64,000 nt of DNA, from contig JAJYOU010000002.1 of the NCBI GenBank assembly GCA_021795965.1, positions 1 to 64,000 of the forward strand, given 5' to 3'. Shown one piece after another: positions 46,104 to 53,779 of the stretch. The stretch comes from Chloroflexota bacterium. GTDB lineage: Bacteria; Chloroflexota; Anaerolineae; Anaerolineales; Villigracilaceae. How positions within the stretch are numbered: position 1 is the first letter of the stretch; each line of letters starts with the position of its first letter. A program made the translations under genes and the position numbers. A model generated the notes under the pieces. It did not search any database and had not been told where the DNA came from. It was given only the letters and a program-made list of their open reading frames with translations.

Positions 46104-47063
46104 TTAGCTTTTCTTTAATCTGCTTTTTAAAAGGTAATCCAGCAAGACTGCGATGATAAACATCATTCCCTTGATGACTTGCTGGTTATAGGATGGAACC
46201 TCAAGCAGATTCAACCCATTCGTCAAAACTCCAATAATAAATGTCCCGATGATTGCCCCCGTCACCGAGCCCGCTCCTCCCATCAGGCTGGCACCGCCCA
46301 GCACACTCGAGGCAATCGCATCCAATTCCAGACCCGTCCCACTATTGGGCTGCGCCGACCACAAACGCGCGGTGAGGAGTAGTCCGGTCAAACCTGCACA
46401 CAGTGCACTAATGATATAAACACCGAATTTGATCTTTATCGGAGAGATGCCCGCCAACCGCGATGTTTCTTCATTACCACCGACAGCAAAAACATAATTT
46501 CCGAAAATGGAACGATGGAGGATGATGTAAGCAACAATTGCGACAAAAATTAAAACAAACAACGGAATCGGGATGCCGTGGAAATCACTCGACCAAAAAG
46601 TGAAAAGTTTGTCCAGCCCCGATATCGGTCGACCTTCTGTGTACACCAGGGTCAAACCTCGTGCGGCTGCCATGCTTGCCAATGTCGCGACAAAAGGTGG
46701 AATGCGACCCCAGGCAATCAGCGCTCCATTAAACGCCCCCACCAGTGCAGCCGCACTCAAAGCTACCAAAATTGCCGGGTAGGTTCCCAACCCGCTTTTA
46801 GTTGCCAAACCAGCCGCCAATGCTCCGGTCAGGGCCGCGACAGATCCAACGGATAAATCCACCCCACCAGTGATCAAGGTAAATGTCATGCCAATCGCTG
46901 CAATAGCGATCATTGAAGTTTGCAAAGCAACAGTCAGCAGGTTGTTCCCTGTCAGGAAGTCGGGTGAAAGCAGCGAAATAGGCAATGCAACCAGGAGCAG
47001 AATCACCAAGGAACTATTTGCCCTTACCAGGCTCAGGAAACGTTGCAAGGTCTTTTTATTCAT
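46104..47063 (-). CDS. rbsC: Ribose-type ABC transporter permease (second copy)
   Basis: Membrane subunit of a RbsC-like importer, 319 residues with about ten hydrophobic spans. GMTFTLITGGVDLSVGSVAALTG and NALDAIASSVLGGASLMGGAGSV-like blocks (here LELDAIASSVLGGAS) are family signatures. Its start overlaps the ATPase stop by 8 bp. It differs clearly in sequence from the permease at 50508, so the two could form a heterodimer. Last gene of the ribose operon. Confidence 0.92.
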   Translation of the reverse strand: MNKKTLQRFLSLVRANSSLVILLLVALPISLLSPDFLTGNNLLTVALQTSMIAIAAIGMTFTLITGGVDLSVGSVAALTGALAAGLATKSGLGTYPAILVALSAAALVGAFNGALIAWGRIPPFVATLASMAAARGLTLVYTEGRPISGLDKLFTFWSSDFHGIPIPLFVLIFVAIVAYIILHRSIFGNYVFAVGGNEETSRLAGISPIKIKFGVYIISALCAGLTGLLLTARLWSAQPNSGTGLELDAIASSVLGGASLMGGAGSVTGAIIGTFIIGVLTNGLNLLEVPSYNQQVIKGMMFIIAVLLDYLLKSRLKKS

Positions 47064-48582
47064 TCAGGTTTATCCCCGCGTTTTCGAGTTGACCCGTCGC
47101 AGCCTGCATAATTTTATCCTGAGTGGCATCCAGGCGGCTAAATTCTGCCATCAAACGACCCTCACGCATGACCAGGATGCGATCGCTTATTCCAAGAATT
47201 TCGGGGAGCTCAGATGAGATCATGAGAATTGCCATCCCTTTGGATGCAAGTTCCCCCATCAGGTTGTGAATTTCAGCCTTGGCAGAGACGTCGATTCCGC
47301 GGGTGGGTTCATCCAAGATTAATATTTGCGGATTAAGAGCGAGCCAGCGCGCAATAACCACCTTTTGTTGGTTACCCCCCGATAAATTGCCAACGTGCTG
47401 CTCAAGGTTGGGTGTGCGGATATTTAATTGATTAATTGCGCTCCTGATCCAACGATCTATCTTTTTAACTTGTAAAAAACCAAAGCGGGAAAATTTTGTG
47501 AATAAAGTAATCGAGGCGTTGGATCGAACACTTTGCCTGAGAAATAGTCCCTGTGCTTTGCGATCTTCGGTTACCAGACCAATCCCGAGACGGATTGCTT
47601 CTTCAGGCGATTGAATTTTAACCTTTTGCCCTGCCACGATTATTTCACCTGCCTCAAGCGGATCAGCGCCAAAAAGAACTCTTGCAATTTCAGTTCTGCC
47701 AGAACCCACCAATCCTGCCAAACCAACAATTTCGCCTCGGCGCAGGAATAAACTGGCATTCTTCAATCTGGAACCGGATCTAAGCCCATACGCTTCCAAT
47801 ACTATCTCACCTATTTCCGTTTCGGTTTTTGGGAAAAACTCTTTCAGCTCTCGCCCAACCATCATCTGCACGACGGAGTTGATGGATAAATTACCGGTTG
47901 GTTCCACTCCCACCAATTGTCCATCGCGCATGACGGCAATTCGATCAGAAAAAGAAAAAATCTCCTCCATGCGGTGCGAAATATAAATCAGAGTTACTTT
48001 CTGTTCCCGCAAAGTATGCATCATCTCAAACAATTTAACTGATTCGCGTTCGCTCAATGCGCTGGTCGGTTCATCCAAGATGATCACGCGAGATTTAATC
48101 GAGATTGCTTTGGCTATTTCAACCATCTGCCGCTGTGCAATAGAAAGATCAGAAATAATGGCGCTTACAGCAAAATCCAGCCCCAGCTGGTTGATGATGA
48201 CCTGCGCATCTGCCTGCATTTTTTTGGTATCGACGAGAATTCCAGAAACCTGGAGAGGTTCCCGACCCAAAAATATATTTTGGGCAACGCTCATTTGAGG
48301 AATCAGCGCTAATTCCTGATGGATCATCGCGATCCCCAATTCCTGGGCTCGCCGCGGAGAAGTAATCCTGACCTCGTTACCGTCCAGCAGGATCATTCCA
48401 GAATCGGCTATCAGTGCGCCGCTCAGGATATTCATGAGCGTGCTTTTTCCCGCGCCATTTTCGCCAACCAGCGCAAGTATCTCACCGAAATAAGCCGCCA
48501 GCGTCACATCCCTGACAGCCATAACCCCGGGAAAAGACTTGACGATATTTTTAAGTTCAAGGCGGTAAGTTTGATCTGTCAT
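47056..48582 (-). CDS. rbsA: Ribose-type ABC transporter ATPase
   Basis: Fused two-domain ATPase of the RbsA/MglA group. The first Walker A is GENGAGKST (40-48). The second domain has the degenerate GLVGSGRTE typical of the group, and both keep an ABC signature (DLSIAQRQMVEIAKA; LSGGNQQKVVIARWL). The start is MTDQTYRLEL at 48582 (508 residues). An ATG at 48594 is also possible, but a longer frame to 48630 would begin inside the intergenic hairpin. Neither has a strong ribosome binding site. Confidence 0.93.
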   Translation of the reverse strand: MTDQTYRLELKNIVKSFPGVMAVRDVTLAAYFGEILALVGENGAGKSTLMNILSGALIADSGMILLDGNEVRITSPRRAQELGIAMIHQELALIPQMSVAQNIFLGREPLQVSGILVDTKKMQADAQVIINQLGLDFAVSAIISDLSIAQRQMVEIAKAISIKSRVIILDEPTSALSERESVKLFEMMHTLREQKVTLIYISHRMEEIFSFSDRIAVMRDGQLVGVEPTGNLSINSVVQMMVGRELKEFFPKTETEIGEIVLEAYGLRSGSRLKNASLFLRRGEIVGLAGLVGSGRTEIARVLFGADPLEAGEIIVAGQKVKIQSPEEAIRLGIGLVTEDRKAQGLFLRQSVRSNASITLFTKFSRFGFLQVKKIDRWIRSAINQLNIRTPNLEQHVGNLSGGNQQKVVIARWLALNPQILILDEPTRGIDVSAKAEIHNLMGELASKGMAILMISSELPEILGISDRILVMREGRLMAEFSRLDATQDKIMQAATGQLENAGINLNE

Positions 48583-48599
48583 TTTAAATCGCATGAAGA

Positions 48600-48632
48600 G
48601 AGTGTCCCCGGTTGGTTTCACCGGGGACACTC
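48600..48632 (-). terminator. Strong hairpin between binding-protein and ATPase genes
   Basis: GAGTGTCCCCGGT (48600-48612) pairs perfectly over 13 bp with 48620-48632 around a 7-base loop. No T run follows on the minus strand. It probably pauses transcription or blocks 3' decay, keeping the binding-protein message more abundant than the ATPase message. Confidence 0.7.
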
Positions 48633-48646
48633 AATATGTATATTAA

Positions 48647-50416
48647 TTACTTGGTTACAAGTGAAAGCGGAACAGGAATGGATGCAGCAACAGTCTCGCC
48701 ATTCAGGTATTTTAGCGCAGATTCCACGCCCAACCGGCCAATTTCAGCGGGTTGCTGGGCGACAGTGGCTGCAAGCGAGCCATCCTGGACAGCTTTGGTG
48801 GCGTCATCGATCGCATCGAAACCGACAAAAACAATGCCGGTTCTTTTCGCTGCTTGAGCAGCCTGGAGAGCGCCAAGAATCATTTCATCATTGTGGGCAA
48901 AAACGCCCGCAATATCGGGTTGAGCCTGCAGAATGTTTTCGAAGACTTTCAGACCCTCATCGCGATTGAAGTTGGCGGTTTGCTGGGCAACAATCTTGGC
49001 ATCTTTGCAGTTGGCAGCCATGTAATCATCAAAGCCCTTGCCGCGGTCGCGTGCAGCCGACGTGCCGGCGATACCTTGGAGTTCGACTACATTTCCTTTG
49101 CCATTGATGGCTTTGCACAGGAATTCGGCAGCCATTGCACCACCCGCAACGTTATCCGATGCGATATGAGCCACAACAGTACCGCCATTCGCGCCGCGAT
49201 CCACAGTAAAGACCGGGATTCCAGCATCATTGGCTTTTTGGATGGCAGGTACAACCGCATCCGAATCGGTTGGGTTGATTAGCAGAGCTGAAACTTTCTT
49301 GGTAATCAGGTCTTCAATTCCAGCCACCATTTTGGCTGAATCATCCTGGGCATCGACGACGATCAATTTTGCACCAGCAGCATCAGCAGCTTTTTGAGCT
49401 CCATCACGGAGTGTCACAAAGAACGGGTTGTTAAGGGTGGAAAGAACCAATCCAAGTGTGACTTCCTTTTTCGGAGCGGGGAGTGTCACACCCAGCGATT
49501 CGGCAGTGACCAGGGACAGCGGAACGGGGATGGAAGCATCCACTTTTTCGCCGTTCAAAGACTTGATGGCAGTTTCAATTCCCAATCGGCCGATTTCAGC
49601 GGGTTGCTGGGCAACTGTTGCAGCCAGTTTGCCATCTTTGACAGCCGCGACGGCATCATCCACTGCATCGAAACCAACAAACACGATACCAGTGCGTTTG
49701 GCAGCATCCGCAGCCTGAATTGCACCCAGGATCATTTCATCATTATGAGCAAATACTGCAGCAATATCGGGTTGAGCCTGAAGAATGTTTTCAAAAACCT
49801 TGAGACCTTCATCCCGGTTAAAGTTGGCGGTTTGCTGGGCAACGATCTTGGCATCTTTGCAGTTGGCAGCCATATAATCATCAAAACCCTTGCCGCGATC
49901 ACGTGCAGCAGAAGTTCCTGCAATCCCTTGCAGTTCAACCACGTTGCCTTTGCCGCCGATCGCCTTGCAGAGGAATTCGCCAGCCATCGTGCCACCGGCA
50001 ACATTGTCGGATGCAATGTGCGCGACCACATTCCCCCCGTTTGCACCTCGATCAATCGTGAAAACCGGGATATTTGCGTCATTAGCCTTCTTGATGGATG
50101 GAACAACCGCGTCCGAGTCTGTCGGGTTGATCAGGATGGCAGAAACCTTTTTAGTGATCAGGTCCTCGATCCCAGCGGTCATTTTGGCGGAATCGTCCTG
50201 GGCATCCACGATAATCAATTTCACGCCAGCAGCATCAGCAGCTTTTTGAGCTCCATCCCTGAGGGTGACAAAGAACGGGTTGTTGAGGGTGGAAAGTACG
50301 AGACCCAGGGTCTTTTCTGCAGGCTGAACAGGTTGGGCAGTCGCTGCCCCTCCACATGCTGAAAGCAATACGGCAACCAGCATTAGTACGCTAAAAATCA
50401 TTGAAATGCGTTTCAT
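48647..50416 (-). CDS. rbsB: Tandem-duplicated ribose-type substrate-binding lipoprotein
   Basis: A 589-residue exported lipoprotein (lipobox LLSAC, cysteine 21) carrying two complete periplasmic-binding domains in one chain: residues 36-304 and 320-588. The halves align without gaps and by my count differ at 26 of 269 positions. Both keep the sugar-site patterns of the family (LSTLNNPFFVTLRDG, INPTDSDAVVP, FAHNDEMILGA, VGFDA). The linker (305-319) reads AESLGVTLPAPKKEV. Normal family members have one domain of about 300 residues. AAGGAG precedes the ATG. Ribose is inferred from rbsD and rbsK in the operon. Confidence 0.95.
   Translation of the reverse strand: MKRISMIFSVLMLVAVLLSACGGAATAQPVQPAEKTLGLVLSTLNNPFFVTLRDGAQKAADAAGVKLIIVDAQDDSAKMTAGIEDLITKKVSAILINPTDSDAVVPSIKKANDANIPVFTIDRGANGGNVVAHIASDNVAGGTMAGEFLCKAIGGKGNVVELQGIAGTSAARDRGKGFDDYMAANCKDAKIVAQQTANFNRDEGLKVFENILQAQPDIAAVFAHNDEMILGAIQAADAAKRTGIVFVGFDAVDDAVAAVKDGKLAATVAQQPAEIGRLGIETAIKSLNGEKVDASIPVPLSLVTAESLGVTLPAPKKEVTLGLVLSTLNNPFFVTLRDGAQKAADAAGAKLIVVDAQDDSAKMVAGIEDLITKKVSALLINPTDSDAVVPAIQKANDAGIPVFTVDRGANGGTVVAHIASDNVAGGAMAAEFLCKAINGKGNVVELQGIAGTSAARDRGKGFDDYMAANCKDAKIVAQQTANFNRDEGLKVFENILQAQPDIAGVFAHNDEMILGALQAAQAAKRTGIVFVGFDAIDDATKAVQDGSLAATVAQQPAEIGRLGVESALKYLNGETVAASIPVPLSLVTK
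48653..49459 (-). repeat. Second unit of the internal duplication in the binding-protein gene
   Basis: 807 bp encoding residues 320-588, repeated from 49505-50311 at an offset of 852 bp with high nucleotide similarity. Confidence 0.9.
49505..50311 (-). repeat. First unit of the internal duplication in the binding-protein gene
   Basis: 807 bp encoding residues 36-304. It pairs with the unit at 48653-49459; the protein copies are about 90% identical. Confidence 0.9.
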
Positions 50417-50507: not shown

Positions 50508-51479
50508 TTATTTTGTAGACCGGTTAATGGCATTATAGAATAGCAGGGCTAGCGCTATCACTGTCCCTTTAACCACCTGTTCCCATAGCGGCGAGACATT
50601 GAGAAGATTCAATCCGTTTCCGAGTGTTTCGATCAATAACGTGCCAAAGAGGGTTCCCAACAGGGTTCCTTCACCACCCGAAAAACTTGTTCCTCCAACC
50701 ACCACCGCAGCAATGGCGTTGAACTCATACCCGACACCGATCACAGGTTGCGCAGAATCAAGCCTGGCCACCAAAATTATCCCGGCCAATGCCGCACACA
50801 TGCCAGAAATCATATATACGTAAACGATCATACGGTTGACATTAATTCCCGCCAATCGCGCCGCCACAGGATTATCGCCAATTAAATAGACATATTCACC
50901 AAAACGAGTCCGGCTGAGCAGCAACGTCATCACGATAAACAGCAAGCCAGCCACCACAATTGGCATTGGAACCGGTCCAATCGAACTTATTCCAATAAAC
51001 CTGAATGATTCCGGTAACCCGGTGAAAGGTTTGCCCTGCGTGTACATGAGGGTCAAACCGCGTCCAACGGTCAGCATGCCCAGAGTGGCGATAAATGGAG
51101 GTATTTTTCCGCGGGTAATCATCACGCCATTGATCATACCCATCACGGCACCGATTGCAATCGCGATTAAAAAACCCAGCAACGCTGGTACGCCCTGCTT
51201 GACAAGGTCGGCTGCCACAACCGCGGAAAGCGCCAGGATCGATCCAACTGAAAGATCAATACCTGCAGTCAAAATCACCAGGGTCATGCCAATGGCAACA
51301 ATTCCGCTGATGGTTGCCTGCCGCACAATATTGATCTGGTTCGAGCCCGTCAGGAATCGATCAGAGAGCAGCGTAAGCCCAAGTGCCAGCAAGGCATAAA
51401 CCAATAACAATCCGAAGCGCTTTAGAAATATGCTCAAGGTGAAAGGTGCTGAGCTGGGCTGCGCTACAGATGTAGTCAT
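50508..51479 (-). CDS. rbsC: Ribose-type ABC transporter permease (first copy)
   Basis: 323-residue membrane subunit with the RbsC pattern: GMTLVILTAGIDLSVGSILALS and YEFNAIAAVVVGGTSFSGGEG. The start at 51479 (MTTSVAQPS) follows the rbsD stop directly; the longer frame would overlap rbsD. It precedes the binding-protein gene by 91 bp. It has a polar N-terminal tail of about 20 residues before the first span, which the other permease lacks. Confidence 0.92.
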   Translation of the reverse strand: MTTSVAQPSSAPFTLSIFLKRFGLLLVYALLALGLTLLSDRFLTGSNQINIVRQATISGIVAIGMTLVILTAGIDLSVGSILALSAVVAADLVKQGVPALLGFLIAIAIGAVMGMINGVMITRGKIPPFIATLGMLTVGRGLTLMYTQGKPFTGLPESFRFIGISSIGPVPMPIVVAGLLFIVMTLLLSRTRFGEYVYLIGDNPVAARLAGINVNRMIVYVYMISGMCAALAGIILVARLDSAQPVIGVGYEFNAIAAVVVGGTSFSGGEGTLLGTLFGTLLIETLGNGLNLLNVSPLWEQVVKGTVIALALLFYNAINRSTK

Positions 51480-51480
51480 A

Positions 51481-51876
51481 TTAAAAAACCACTCCAGAAA
51501 CCAGGATGATATTGGCAAAAGGAGCGAATTCACCCGTCCGGACGACAGCCCGGGCATCGATGGTTAATTTCTTAAAGGTCGTATGAGGCACAAACTCCAT
51601 CGTTATCCCGGGCAAAAGAGCCCGAACAGCATCGAGATACTTGGGGTTGCGCGTTTTTACTTCCTCTGCCAGAATTACCTTTTCAACCTGCATTTCCTCC
51701 AGAATTACCCTGAGCGTGTCCAGCGCTCCAGGGATACCTTCAGTAAGCGCCAGATCAATGCGCTCAGTCTCTGGGGGAACCGGCAATCCGGCATCTCCAA
51801 CCACCAGCATTTGCGTGTGTCCGAGTGTCGCGATTGCGTAGGATAATTCTGAATTTATCAATTTTGTTTTCTTCAT
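51481..51876 (-). CDS. rbsD: D-ribose pyranase
   Basis: Catalyses the pyran-furan (and anomer) conversion of ribose so that it can be used by ribokinase. LGHTQMLVVGDAGLPVP near the N-terminus holds the catalytic histidine (H20) and aspartate, and VRTGEFAPFANIIL closes the protein. The 131 residues are typical. Start and rbsK stop overlap by 4 bp (ATGA). Its presence is the best evidence that the operon handles ribose. Confidence 0.94.
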   Translation of the reverse strand: MKKTKLINSELSYAIATLGHTQMLVVGDAGLPVPPETERIDLALTEGIPGALDTLRVILEEMQVEKVILAEEVKTRNPKYLDAVRALLPGITMEFVPHTTFKKLTIDARAVVRTGEFAPFANIILVSGVVF

Positions 51877-52781
51877 CCTTTGCCTCCAAGGAACTGATCT
51901 ACCTCTTCTCGCATGGGCATTGACGGCTGCGCCCCTTGCCTTGTCACCGAAATAGCTGCCGCGGCATTCCCAAGACGAGCTGATTCTTCCACGCTCAAAC
52001 CGGTTGATATTCCGCAGGAGAAAGCGCCAACGAATGTGTCCCCGGCGGCGACCGTATCGATCGCTTTTACCTGGTAAGCAGGAATGTATTTTTGCCCTGC
52101 GCGATCGACTAAAAGCACACCTTTTTCCCCCAAGGTGATGATCAAATTTCGCACATCCAATTTCAGTAAAACTTCAATCGCTTTCTTGAGGCTGGATTCT
52201 CCAGCCACCAGCAAAGCTTCGCCTTCATTGGGAATGAAATAATCAACATTTTTTAATAGGTCCGCATCAAGGTGTTGGGCCGGAGCAGGATTTAACACCA
52301 CCTGTAATTGATGCTGCTTTGCCATGTTAATGGCTTCGCGAACGGTTTCGAGCGGGCTTTCCAACTGGATAACCAGCAGGTCCGCACCTTTGAACGCTTG
52401 CTCTGCTTGATGAAGATCTTCGGGGGCGAGAAAATTGTTGGCACCTGAAGCGACTACGATGGTATTTTGACCCTGTGCATTAACTGTAATCAGGGCAACT
52501 CCCGTCGCCTGTTTTTCATCCTCCAGGATATTGCGGACGTCAATCCCATCTTTCATGGCGCTCTTCAGCAATTCCGCTCCAAAACCATCCCGACCTATCC
52601 GGCCGATCATAGTCACAGAAGCTCCCATCCGGGCGGCTGCCACCGCCTGGTTGGCACCTTTTCCGCCAGGGAATGTATTAAATTTCCCGCCGATGATGGT
52701 CTCCCCAATCTGCGGCAGGCGCGTGACATTAATGACCAGGTCCATGTTCAAACTGCCAACCACCAGAATTTTTCCGCCCAT
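51873..52781 (-). CDS. rbsK: Ribokinase
   Basis: PfkB-family kinase making ribose 5-phosphate. It has signature 1, FNTFPGGKGANQAVAAARMG, near 34-53, and signature 2 with the catalytic base, DTVAAGDTFVGAFS, near 242-255. It has 302 residues. GAGG precedes the ATG, which lies 2 bp from the rbsR stop. Product would feed the PRPP synthetase and pentose phosphate pathway. Confidence 0.95.
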   Translation of the reverse strand: MGGKILVVGSLNMDLVINVTRLPQIGETIIGGKFNTFPGGKGANQAVAAARMGASVTMIGRIGRDGFGAELLKSAMKDGIDVRNILEDEKQATGVALITVNAQGQNTIVVASGANNFLAPEDLHQAEQAFKGADLLVIQLESPLETVREAINMAKQHQLQVVLNPAPAQHLDADLLKNVDYFIPNEGEALLVAGESSLKKAIEVLLKLDVRNLIITLGEKGVLLVDRAGQKYIPAYQVKAIDTVAAGDTFVGAFSCGISTGLSVEESARLGNAAAAISVTRQGAQPSMPMREEVDQFLGGKG

Positions 52782-52783
52782 GC

Positions 52784-53779
52784 TTACCTCGCCGAACTTT
52801 CACGAATCACAAGCCTTGTCGGAAGGACGTTTCGCCGGGGTGGCAGGGATGGATTATTAATCCGTTCGATGATCAGGTTGACTGTCATTTGTCCGATTTC
52901 CTGTTTTGGCTGGGAAACCGTGCTTAATAAAGGTGTTGTGTAGGAACTCAATTCGATGTCATCAAAACCAACGATTGCCAAATCATCCGGTACTTTTAAT
53001 CCAAGTTGTGATGCTGCTCGCAGTGTACCAATCGCCATCATGTCATTGCAAACAAAAATTGCGGTTGGACGGGGATGATGCTGCAAAAGTTTCAGTCCAG
53101 CGGTATAGCCAGATGCTGCATGAAAATCTCCACGAATAATCAACGTTTCGTCCAGAGAAATTCCTGCCCCCTGCAATGCGTTCCGGTATCCGGTCACGCG
53201 CTCAGCGCTCGGAGTCAGGTTGGAAGGACCCGTGATGCAGCCAATGAGCTTGTGTCCGTTCGCCAGCAGATGTTGGGTGGCGAGTAGCCCCCCCTGAAAA
53301 TTGTCGGTTGTGACGCAATCCAGTTCGAGGTTGGCCATATCCCGGTCCACAACCACCAAAGGTGTGCCATTTTGGACAATTTTCGAGATGGATTCCCGAT
53401 TTTCCCCCGCGCCGACAAATATAATGCCGTCCACCTGCTTGTTTTCAAGCACATCGGTGTACATGCGCTCTTTATTTTGATCATTTTCAGTGTTGCAGAG
53501 GATGACGCTGTAACCAATCGCAAAAGCTGCAGATTCAATCGCATGTCCCACTTCGGCAAAAAAGGGATTGGCGCTATCCGGCAGGATCAATCCCAGGGTG
53601 TGGGTATGACCGCTGCGCAAAGAACGCGCGAGCCCGTTTGGACGATATCCAAGCTCAAGCATGGCTTTTTGAACCTGTTCGCGGACCGGCGCCGATACAA
53701 AACGCGTGCCATTAATCACATGAGAGACGGTTGCCGATGATGTTCCTGCTTGAGCTGCAACTTGCTTTATGGTGGTCAT
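52784..53779 (-). CDS. rbsR: LacI family transcriptional regulator of the ribose operon
   Basis: 331-residue repressor. The LacI helix-turn-helix is TIKQVAAQAGTSSATVSHVI (3-22), followed by the hinge helix region NGLARSLRSG and a sugar-binding core homologous to RbsB (about 60-331). First gene of the operon. The palindrome just upstream overlaps its own promoter, which suggests autoregulation with release by ribose or a ribose phosphate. Confidence 0.93.
   Translation of the reverse strand: MTTIKQVAAQAGTSSATVSHVINGTRFVSAPVREQVQKAMLELGYRPNGLARSLRSGHTHTLGLILPDSANPFFAEVGHAIESAAFAIGYSVILCNTENDQNKERMYTDVLENKQVDGIIFVGAGENRESISKIVQNGTPLVVVDRDMANLELDCVTTDNFQGGLLATQHLLANGHKLIGCITGPSNLTPSAERVTGYRNALQGAGISLDETLIIRGDFHAASGYTAGLKLLQHHPRPTAIFVCNDMMAIGTLRAASQLGLKVPDDLAIVGFDDIELSSYTTPLLSTVSQPKQEIGQMTVNLIIERINNPSLPPRRNVLPTRLVIRESSAR

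Follow-up and report, generated by a model that had tools for sequence, protein, structure and literature searches.

Within the window, by which we mean the whole stretch of 64,000 nucleotides that was analyzed, a set of ribose genes on the minus strand runs in the order rbsR-rbsK-rbsD-rbsC1-rbsBB-rbsA-rbsC2 and spans positions 53779 to 46104. The gene under study, rbsBB, encodes one lipoprotein with two complete RbsB domains and lies inside this operon. The genes and features are as follows.

52784..53779, minus strand: rbsR-like LacI-family regulator (RbsR model PRK10423, 317.6 bits, below the cut-off of 531)
51873..52781, minus strand: rbsK, ribokinase (TIGR02152, 364.2 bits against a cut-off of 299.65)
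51481..51876, minus strand: rbsD, D-ribose pyranase (171.3 bits against a cut-off of 93)
50508..51479, minus strand: rbsC1, first permease gene (ribose permease PRK09512, 294 bits, below the cut-off of 398)
48647..50416, minus strand: rbsBB, tandem ribose-binding lipoprotein of 589 aa (single ORF; PF13407 twice; NF007936 RbsB)
50354..50416, minus strand: predicted signal peptide and lipobox LSAC, residues 1-21 with Cys21 (sequence and pattern match)
49505..50314, minus strand: RbsB domain 1, residues 35-304 (alignment of the halves, PDB match, predicted fold with pLDDT mostly >90)
49463..49504, minus strand: inter-domain linker AESLGVTLPAPKKE, residues 305-318 (pLDDT drops to 63 in block 311-320)
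48653..49462, minus strand: RbsB domain 2, residues 319-588 (alignment of the halves, PDB match, predicted fold)
48600..48632, minus strand: 13-bp perfect stem-loop between rbsBB and rbsA (folding of 48583-48646)
47056..48582, minus strand: rbsA, ATPase (best NCBIfam match RbsA PRK10762, 566.7 bits, below the cut-off of 745)
46104..47063, minus strand: rbsC2, second permease gene (ribose permease PRK09512, 283.3 bits, below the cut-off of 398)

With rbsA, rbsC, rbsB, rbsD, and rbsK all present together, the operon was assigned to ribose because RbsB, RbsD, and RbsK exceed their curated cut-offs; RbsA, both RbsC proteins, and RbsR have ribose models as their best matches, yet score below the curated cut-offs. 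For two genes, a start other than the listed one is likelier, namely the ATG at 48582 for rbsA in place of a GTG at 48630 that sits inside the stem-loop, and the ATG at 51479 for rbsC1 in place of 51557.

The rbsBB product begins with the signal peptide and its LSAC lipobox, followed by a 13-residue spacer, domain 1, a 14-residue linker, and domain 2. The chain stops one residue past domain 2, and the permeases are encoded by separate genes, with no fusion of rbsBB to a transmembrane domain. Self-alignment gave a best shift of 284 residues with identity at 247 of 306 positions. PF13407 matched both halves (two stretches, E 5.2e-132), the curated RbsB model NF007936 scored 681 bits against a cut-off of 337 (a score that sums the two domains), and each half aligned nearly full-length with the PDB ribose-binding proteins 2ioy and 1dbp. 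AlphaFold2, run on 14 double proteins, predicted two confident domains and a weak linker (mean pLDDT 89.7, pTM 0.52). The top Foldseek matches of the rbsBB model in the PDB were single ribose-binding proteins, 2ioy first, and the 50 PDB matches listed each covered about one rbsBB domain at most. An earlier note made from the DNA had proposed a ribose-binding protein repeated in tandem within one chain, with halves about 90% identical and free of gaps; the single 589-aa ORF, the two PF13407 matches, the PDB match of each half, and an amino-acid identity of 89.7% over 271 aligned codons bear this out, with the linker cut here at 14 residues.

At the DNA level, the identity of the halves is 77.6% (182 differences in 813 nt), third codon positions account for 142 of the differences, and the longest exact run in common is 32 nt. 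Since the halves are this different, both an assembly error and a very recent duplication are unlikely, and as rbsBB lacks a near-exact direct repeat of 807 bp, the proneness to deletion that the earlier note expected is unlikely for this copy. At synonymous sites, the two halves have diverged (dS 1.79, pS 0.68, near saturation) about as far as the orthologous halves of the window and a congener, G005 (1.86 and 1.82). A between-half dS at the level of orthologues, together with a DNA identity of only 78%, led us to reject a recent duplication, which the earlier note had offered as one account of the repeat. Its other suggestion, that the repeat persists under selection, is compatible with a dN/dS of 0.04 between the halves.

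The occurrence of double genes in other genomes excludes a chance origin of the double rbsB. Among 61 relatives, the window's genome counted, full-length doubles were found in G005 (same genus, 90% identity) and G034 (same family, 87%), and G052 carries a double of another family (40% identity). Relatives carry the double rbsB in the same operon, and doubles are also present in the isolates Thermanaerothrix daxensis GNS-1 (L039), Petrocella sp. FN5 (L050), and Clostridiaceae HSG29 (L053). Across Anaerolineae more widely, the number of tandem domains in rbsB varies from one to three, and the same holds, separately, for a few Clostridia. Among the matches listed in a contig scan, at least 80 loci comprised 19 multi-domain genes, 60 single-domain genes, and one (L054) cut at the contig end. 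Removal of near-identical proteins took the set from 115 to 102, in which at least 26 RbsB proteins have two or more full domains; at least five of these are triples (L045, L046, L047, L048, and L126). The set of 28 multi-domain RbsB proteins consists of these 26 plus L052 and L128, both cut by contig edges, and leaves out the more distant doubles L011, L056, and L145. The contigs of L119 (1369-3345) and L129 (1486-3282) end within a further RbsB copy, giving at least three copies each, and short-read assemblies may undercount such arrays.

In a sample of the class, 57 of 396 genomes matched at E <= 1e-60, and the 28 best-scoring RbsB loci (L008, L118-L144) comprised 15 multi-domain and 13 single-domain genes, a best-first ranking that favors multi-domain genes and excludes lower-scoring single or cut matches. 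A phylum sample gave matches in 7 of 251 genomes at E <= 1e-80 and no double among them besides the window. Likewise, a Clostridia sample around HSG29 (G667) gave 12 matches in 291 genomes at E <= 1e-90, one cut by a contig edge, with no double besides the center genome itself.

A lipobox was recognized by pattern in 18 of the 26 multi-domain proteins; of the others, L129 is truncated, L126 carries a Cys within a lipobox-like motif, and six (L043, L044, L051, L060, L143, and L144) have none by pattern. Linkers, as cut, range from 1 to 16 residues across the multi-domain proteins and from 14 to 16 in the clade of the window. Among the proteins listed with a start, linkers of 1 to 3 residues are found in exactly the six without a lipobox, which suggests the spacer in the leader of the second copy as the source of the inter-domain linker. 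L145, of another family, has no lipobox by pattern, yet has a 16-residue linker.

To address how the domains are related, we built a protein tree of 88 domains in which 27 multi-domain proteins have two or more rows. Domains grouped by genome, not by position, in 18 of the 27, and the remaining nine (L008, L009, L010, L040, L041, L043, L143, L045, and L047) were mixed, positional, or unresolved. Positional orthology was observed only among close relatives (L040/L041, L043/L143, and the first halves of L008/L009). Six proteins (L008, L009, L010, L039, L040, and L041) have in common an AESLGVT linker, which is absent from the tail of the single-domain L055 and appears to be a mark of one duplication. 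Five columns, one of them at the domain edge, are strictly half-specific in five of these six species, and at each interior half-specific column L039 and L055 match the first half or its commonest residue. At 12 columns, the residue of a species is common to both of its halves. In a DNA tree of 16 domains, a clade of the five second halves was rejected (p-AU 1.3e-22), and the window's own halves paired (support 73/86, unstarred).

Informative sites were clustered in runs (P<0.01) in 15 of the 20 quartets run, where P values are uncorrected for multiple tests and pairs have sequences in common. The clustering was strongest in L040/L041 and L043/L143, and the five exceptions involve L039 or L119, with nearly all sites of the homogenized type. 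Exact runs within a gene reach 602 nt in L039 and 797 nt in L129. For the window itself, sites shared by position outnumber 'cross' (homoplasy) sites by 17 to 8 with L009, 14 to 12 with L040, and 8 to 6 with L041, so that nucleotide support for position-wise ancestry is thin; because this excess is small, the evidence for an old duplication in the window comes from the linker, dS, and the half-specific residues. The pattern fits an old duplication that may have been homogenized by patchy gene conversion, a process that the earlier note had raised and that the grouping of domains by genome and the clustered sites support. Such a gene offers concerted evolution inside one bacterial ORF, with conversion tracts that can be read directly.

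To characterize ligand binding, we considered 15 positions that we take to be the ribose contacts, mapped via the alignment with 1dbp. Each half of the window protein has all 15 of these residues. Across 59 domains of multi-domain RbsB proteins, they are kept in 883 of 885 cells, and both exceptions are the conservative change F164Y in L129. As these residues are identical and dN/dS is 0.04, both halves of rbsBB probably bind ribose as equivalent receptors. Halves for different ligands, which the earlier note had thought possible, are disfavored by the same residues.

The stem-loop after rbsBB is unusually stable (48583-48646: MFE -27.9 kcal/mol, z -6.3, none of 200 shuffles as good). Among 93 loci tested, z was -3 or lower after rbsB in 53, compared with 3/60 after rbsC1, 2/71 after rbsA, 6/43 after rbsC2, 2/72 after rbsD, and 2/53 after rbsK, a weak control in that the segments after these neighboring genes often fall in the next gene. 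Where rbsB is the last gene, a stem-loop after it may be the operon terminator. In cellulolytic Clostridia, similar stem-loops directly after the binding-protein gene, within the operon, are reported to raise binding-protein transcripts (PMC9045158); the binding-protein genes there lie at the 5' end, whereas rbsB here lies mid-operon, and a terminator role is putative. The stem-loop after rbsBB lends support to, but does not prove, a need for large amounts of receptor. In operons with the rbsB-rbsA layout, after removal of 16 near-copy loci, the 70 nt after rbsB reached z <= -3 in 16 of the 22 operons with several domains and in 7 of the 14 with one. The idea that the tandem substitutes for a stem-loop in raising receptor output was rejected, as both occur together. 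We also rejected a tie between the tandem rbsB and two permease genes: L055, L057, L061, and L062, for example, are one-domain, two-permease operons, and the Clostridial doubles L049, L050, L053, and L116 adjoin one permease gene in the stretch read.

We propose that rbsB underwent a lineage-old tandem duplication with in-frame fusion, by which one lipoprotein would display two complete ribose receptors beside the ribose ABC importer. Domain number would be labile in Anaerolineae (1, 2, or 3), patchy intragenic gene conversion or unequal exchange would homogenize the copies within a gene, and purifying selection would maintain the function of both domains. Both domains would bind ribose independently and dock by turns on the RbsA-RbsC translocator, and the repeat would raise the number and the local supply of loaded receptors per chain. 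The evolutionary part (old in-frame duplication, labile domain number, homogenization, and purifying selection) appears highly probable from the sequence comparisons. The two domains, the operon, the spread over genomes, the mosaic of conversion-like tracts, and selection on both halves can be seen in the sequences themselves. The functional part, in which both domains bind ribose and what is gained is a larger number or a better local supply of receptors, we consider about evenly balanced, and we give the explanation as a whole slightly better than an even chance. By analogy with the tandem domains of GlnPQ, the most likely effect is that each chain carries more receptors of one and the same kind, and the improved local delivery that the earlier note had suggested is the leading candidate function. 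Three points weigh against this receptor-supply reading. Binding proteins are reported to reach 30-50-fold excess already (PMC9045158), so doubling the receptors may matter little. An advantage 'per lipid anchor' cannot be general, because six multi-domain RbsB proteins have no lipobox by pattern. Finally, one domain suffices in many operons of the same layout among the loci read.

It is also conceivable, though unlikely, that the tandem is close to neutral and arises as a side effect where tandem duplication and exchange are frequent, its extra domains being tolerated rather than selected. On a tree of RbsA from 44 operons (45 were named, one without a strong RbsA match), domain number changed at least eight times, five of these changes forced by starred branches. 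Singles neighbor doubles on the trees, as the single-domain L055 beside the double L039, and the exact runs of hundreds of nt within genes point the same way. Against this, domain number clusters on the tree (8 changes compared with 14.6 in shuffles), the tandem is found again in Clostridia and among other families of binding proteins, and in the lineage of the window the halves stayed open and constrained (dN/dS 0.04) while dS neared saturation. Somewhat less likely is a copy-number dial, in which recombination-driven in-frame repeats would expand, contract, and convert within populations (1, 2, 3, or more), tuning ribose capture, while inner and outer domains would stay different at a few residues; other sugar-binding families of the class would have acquired such a dial on several occasions.

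Specialized halves, one binding ribose and the other a different sugar, would widen the range of the translocator as in GlnPQ, whose two domains are reported to differ in specificity (PMC8025302). The few half-specific residues persist despite homogenization, and dN/dS of paired domains (0.04-0.32) mostly exceeds that of orthologous domains (0.03-0.085, five pairs), which could reflect some specialization or relaxed constraint. We nevertheless regard this explanation as improbable, since the contact residues are the same in both window halves and in nearly all other copies, homogenization opposes specialization, and the only sugar enzymes in the operon are ribose pyranase and ribokinase. L126 (613-3267, minus strand), a triple with domains just 65-71% identical, is the most diverged array and a candidate for specialized domains.

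A slightly lower probability still attaches to physical cooperation, in which a docked half would alter the docking of the other, or the second half would reach through a wall layer, geometry mattering over number. The two domains of OpuA are described as cooperative and transiently interacting (PMC11065425), and linker lengths in the window's clade are similar (14-16 residues). The domains of GlnPQ, however, are reported to act independently (PMC8025302), linkers as cut vary from 1 to 16 residues across multi-domain RbsB proteins, and in the AlphaFold2 model, judged by its pTM of 0.52 and the high confidence within each domain, nothing points to a fixed interface. An assembly artefact or chimera, despite the draft state of the genome (62% complete, 39 contigs), was rejected for the window as next to impossible, given the 182 differences, the absence of any exact repeat beyond 32 nt, and the same structure in independent assemblies, isolates included.

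Returning to the multiplied equivalent receptors that we favor, each half of rbsBB resembles the RbsB of CUT2 ABC importers (E. coli 1dbp/2dri, T. tengcongensis 2ioy), being a complete RbsB with the ribose-contact residues in an rbs operon, and differs in that there are two domains per chain. AdcA, a zinc lipoprotein of Gram-positive bacteria, is likewise a free two-domain binding lipoprotein. The domains of AdcA (ZnuA-type plus ZinT-type) are unlike each other and are not copies. GlnPQ of Lactococcus lactis has tandem domains joined by a 14-residue linker, with reported independent binding and competition for docking (PMC8025302); its domains are permease-fused and differ in specificity, whereas rbsBB is a free lipoprotein with domains about 90% identical. 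OpuA of L. lactis is reported to have two equivalent binding domains per translocator (PMC11065425), each fused to a permease chain and not in tandem, while those of rbsBB are tandem and unfused. A chain of two or three like RbsB domains that is not fused to a permease and evolves in concert is a variant of these known multi-domain binding systems. No description of tandem RbsB lipoproteins was found in the literature searched, whose coverage leaves most subscription journals outside. Why some importers have several binding domains is a question studied mainly in GlnPQ and OpuA, with their permease-fused domains. The same operon layout with one, two, or three near-equivalent RbsB domains allows domain number to be compared with little else changed, and is a natural test case for multi-receptor nutrient importers.

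In other sugar-binding families of the class, a clear self-repeat was found in 15 of 18 further stretches, with shifts of 283-351 residues; these 18 were preselected as tandem-looking and give no estimate of prevalence. L168, L169, and L170 fell below the self-repeat threshold, and near-identical tandems are present in L160-L167, L171-L175, L178, and L179. Differing repeat lengths and low similarity suggest that the tandems of these families arose independently. The L160 tandem lies in a single-contig genome of 4.67 Mb.
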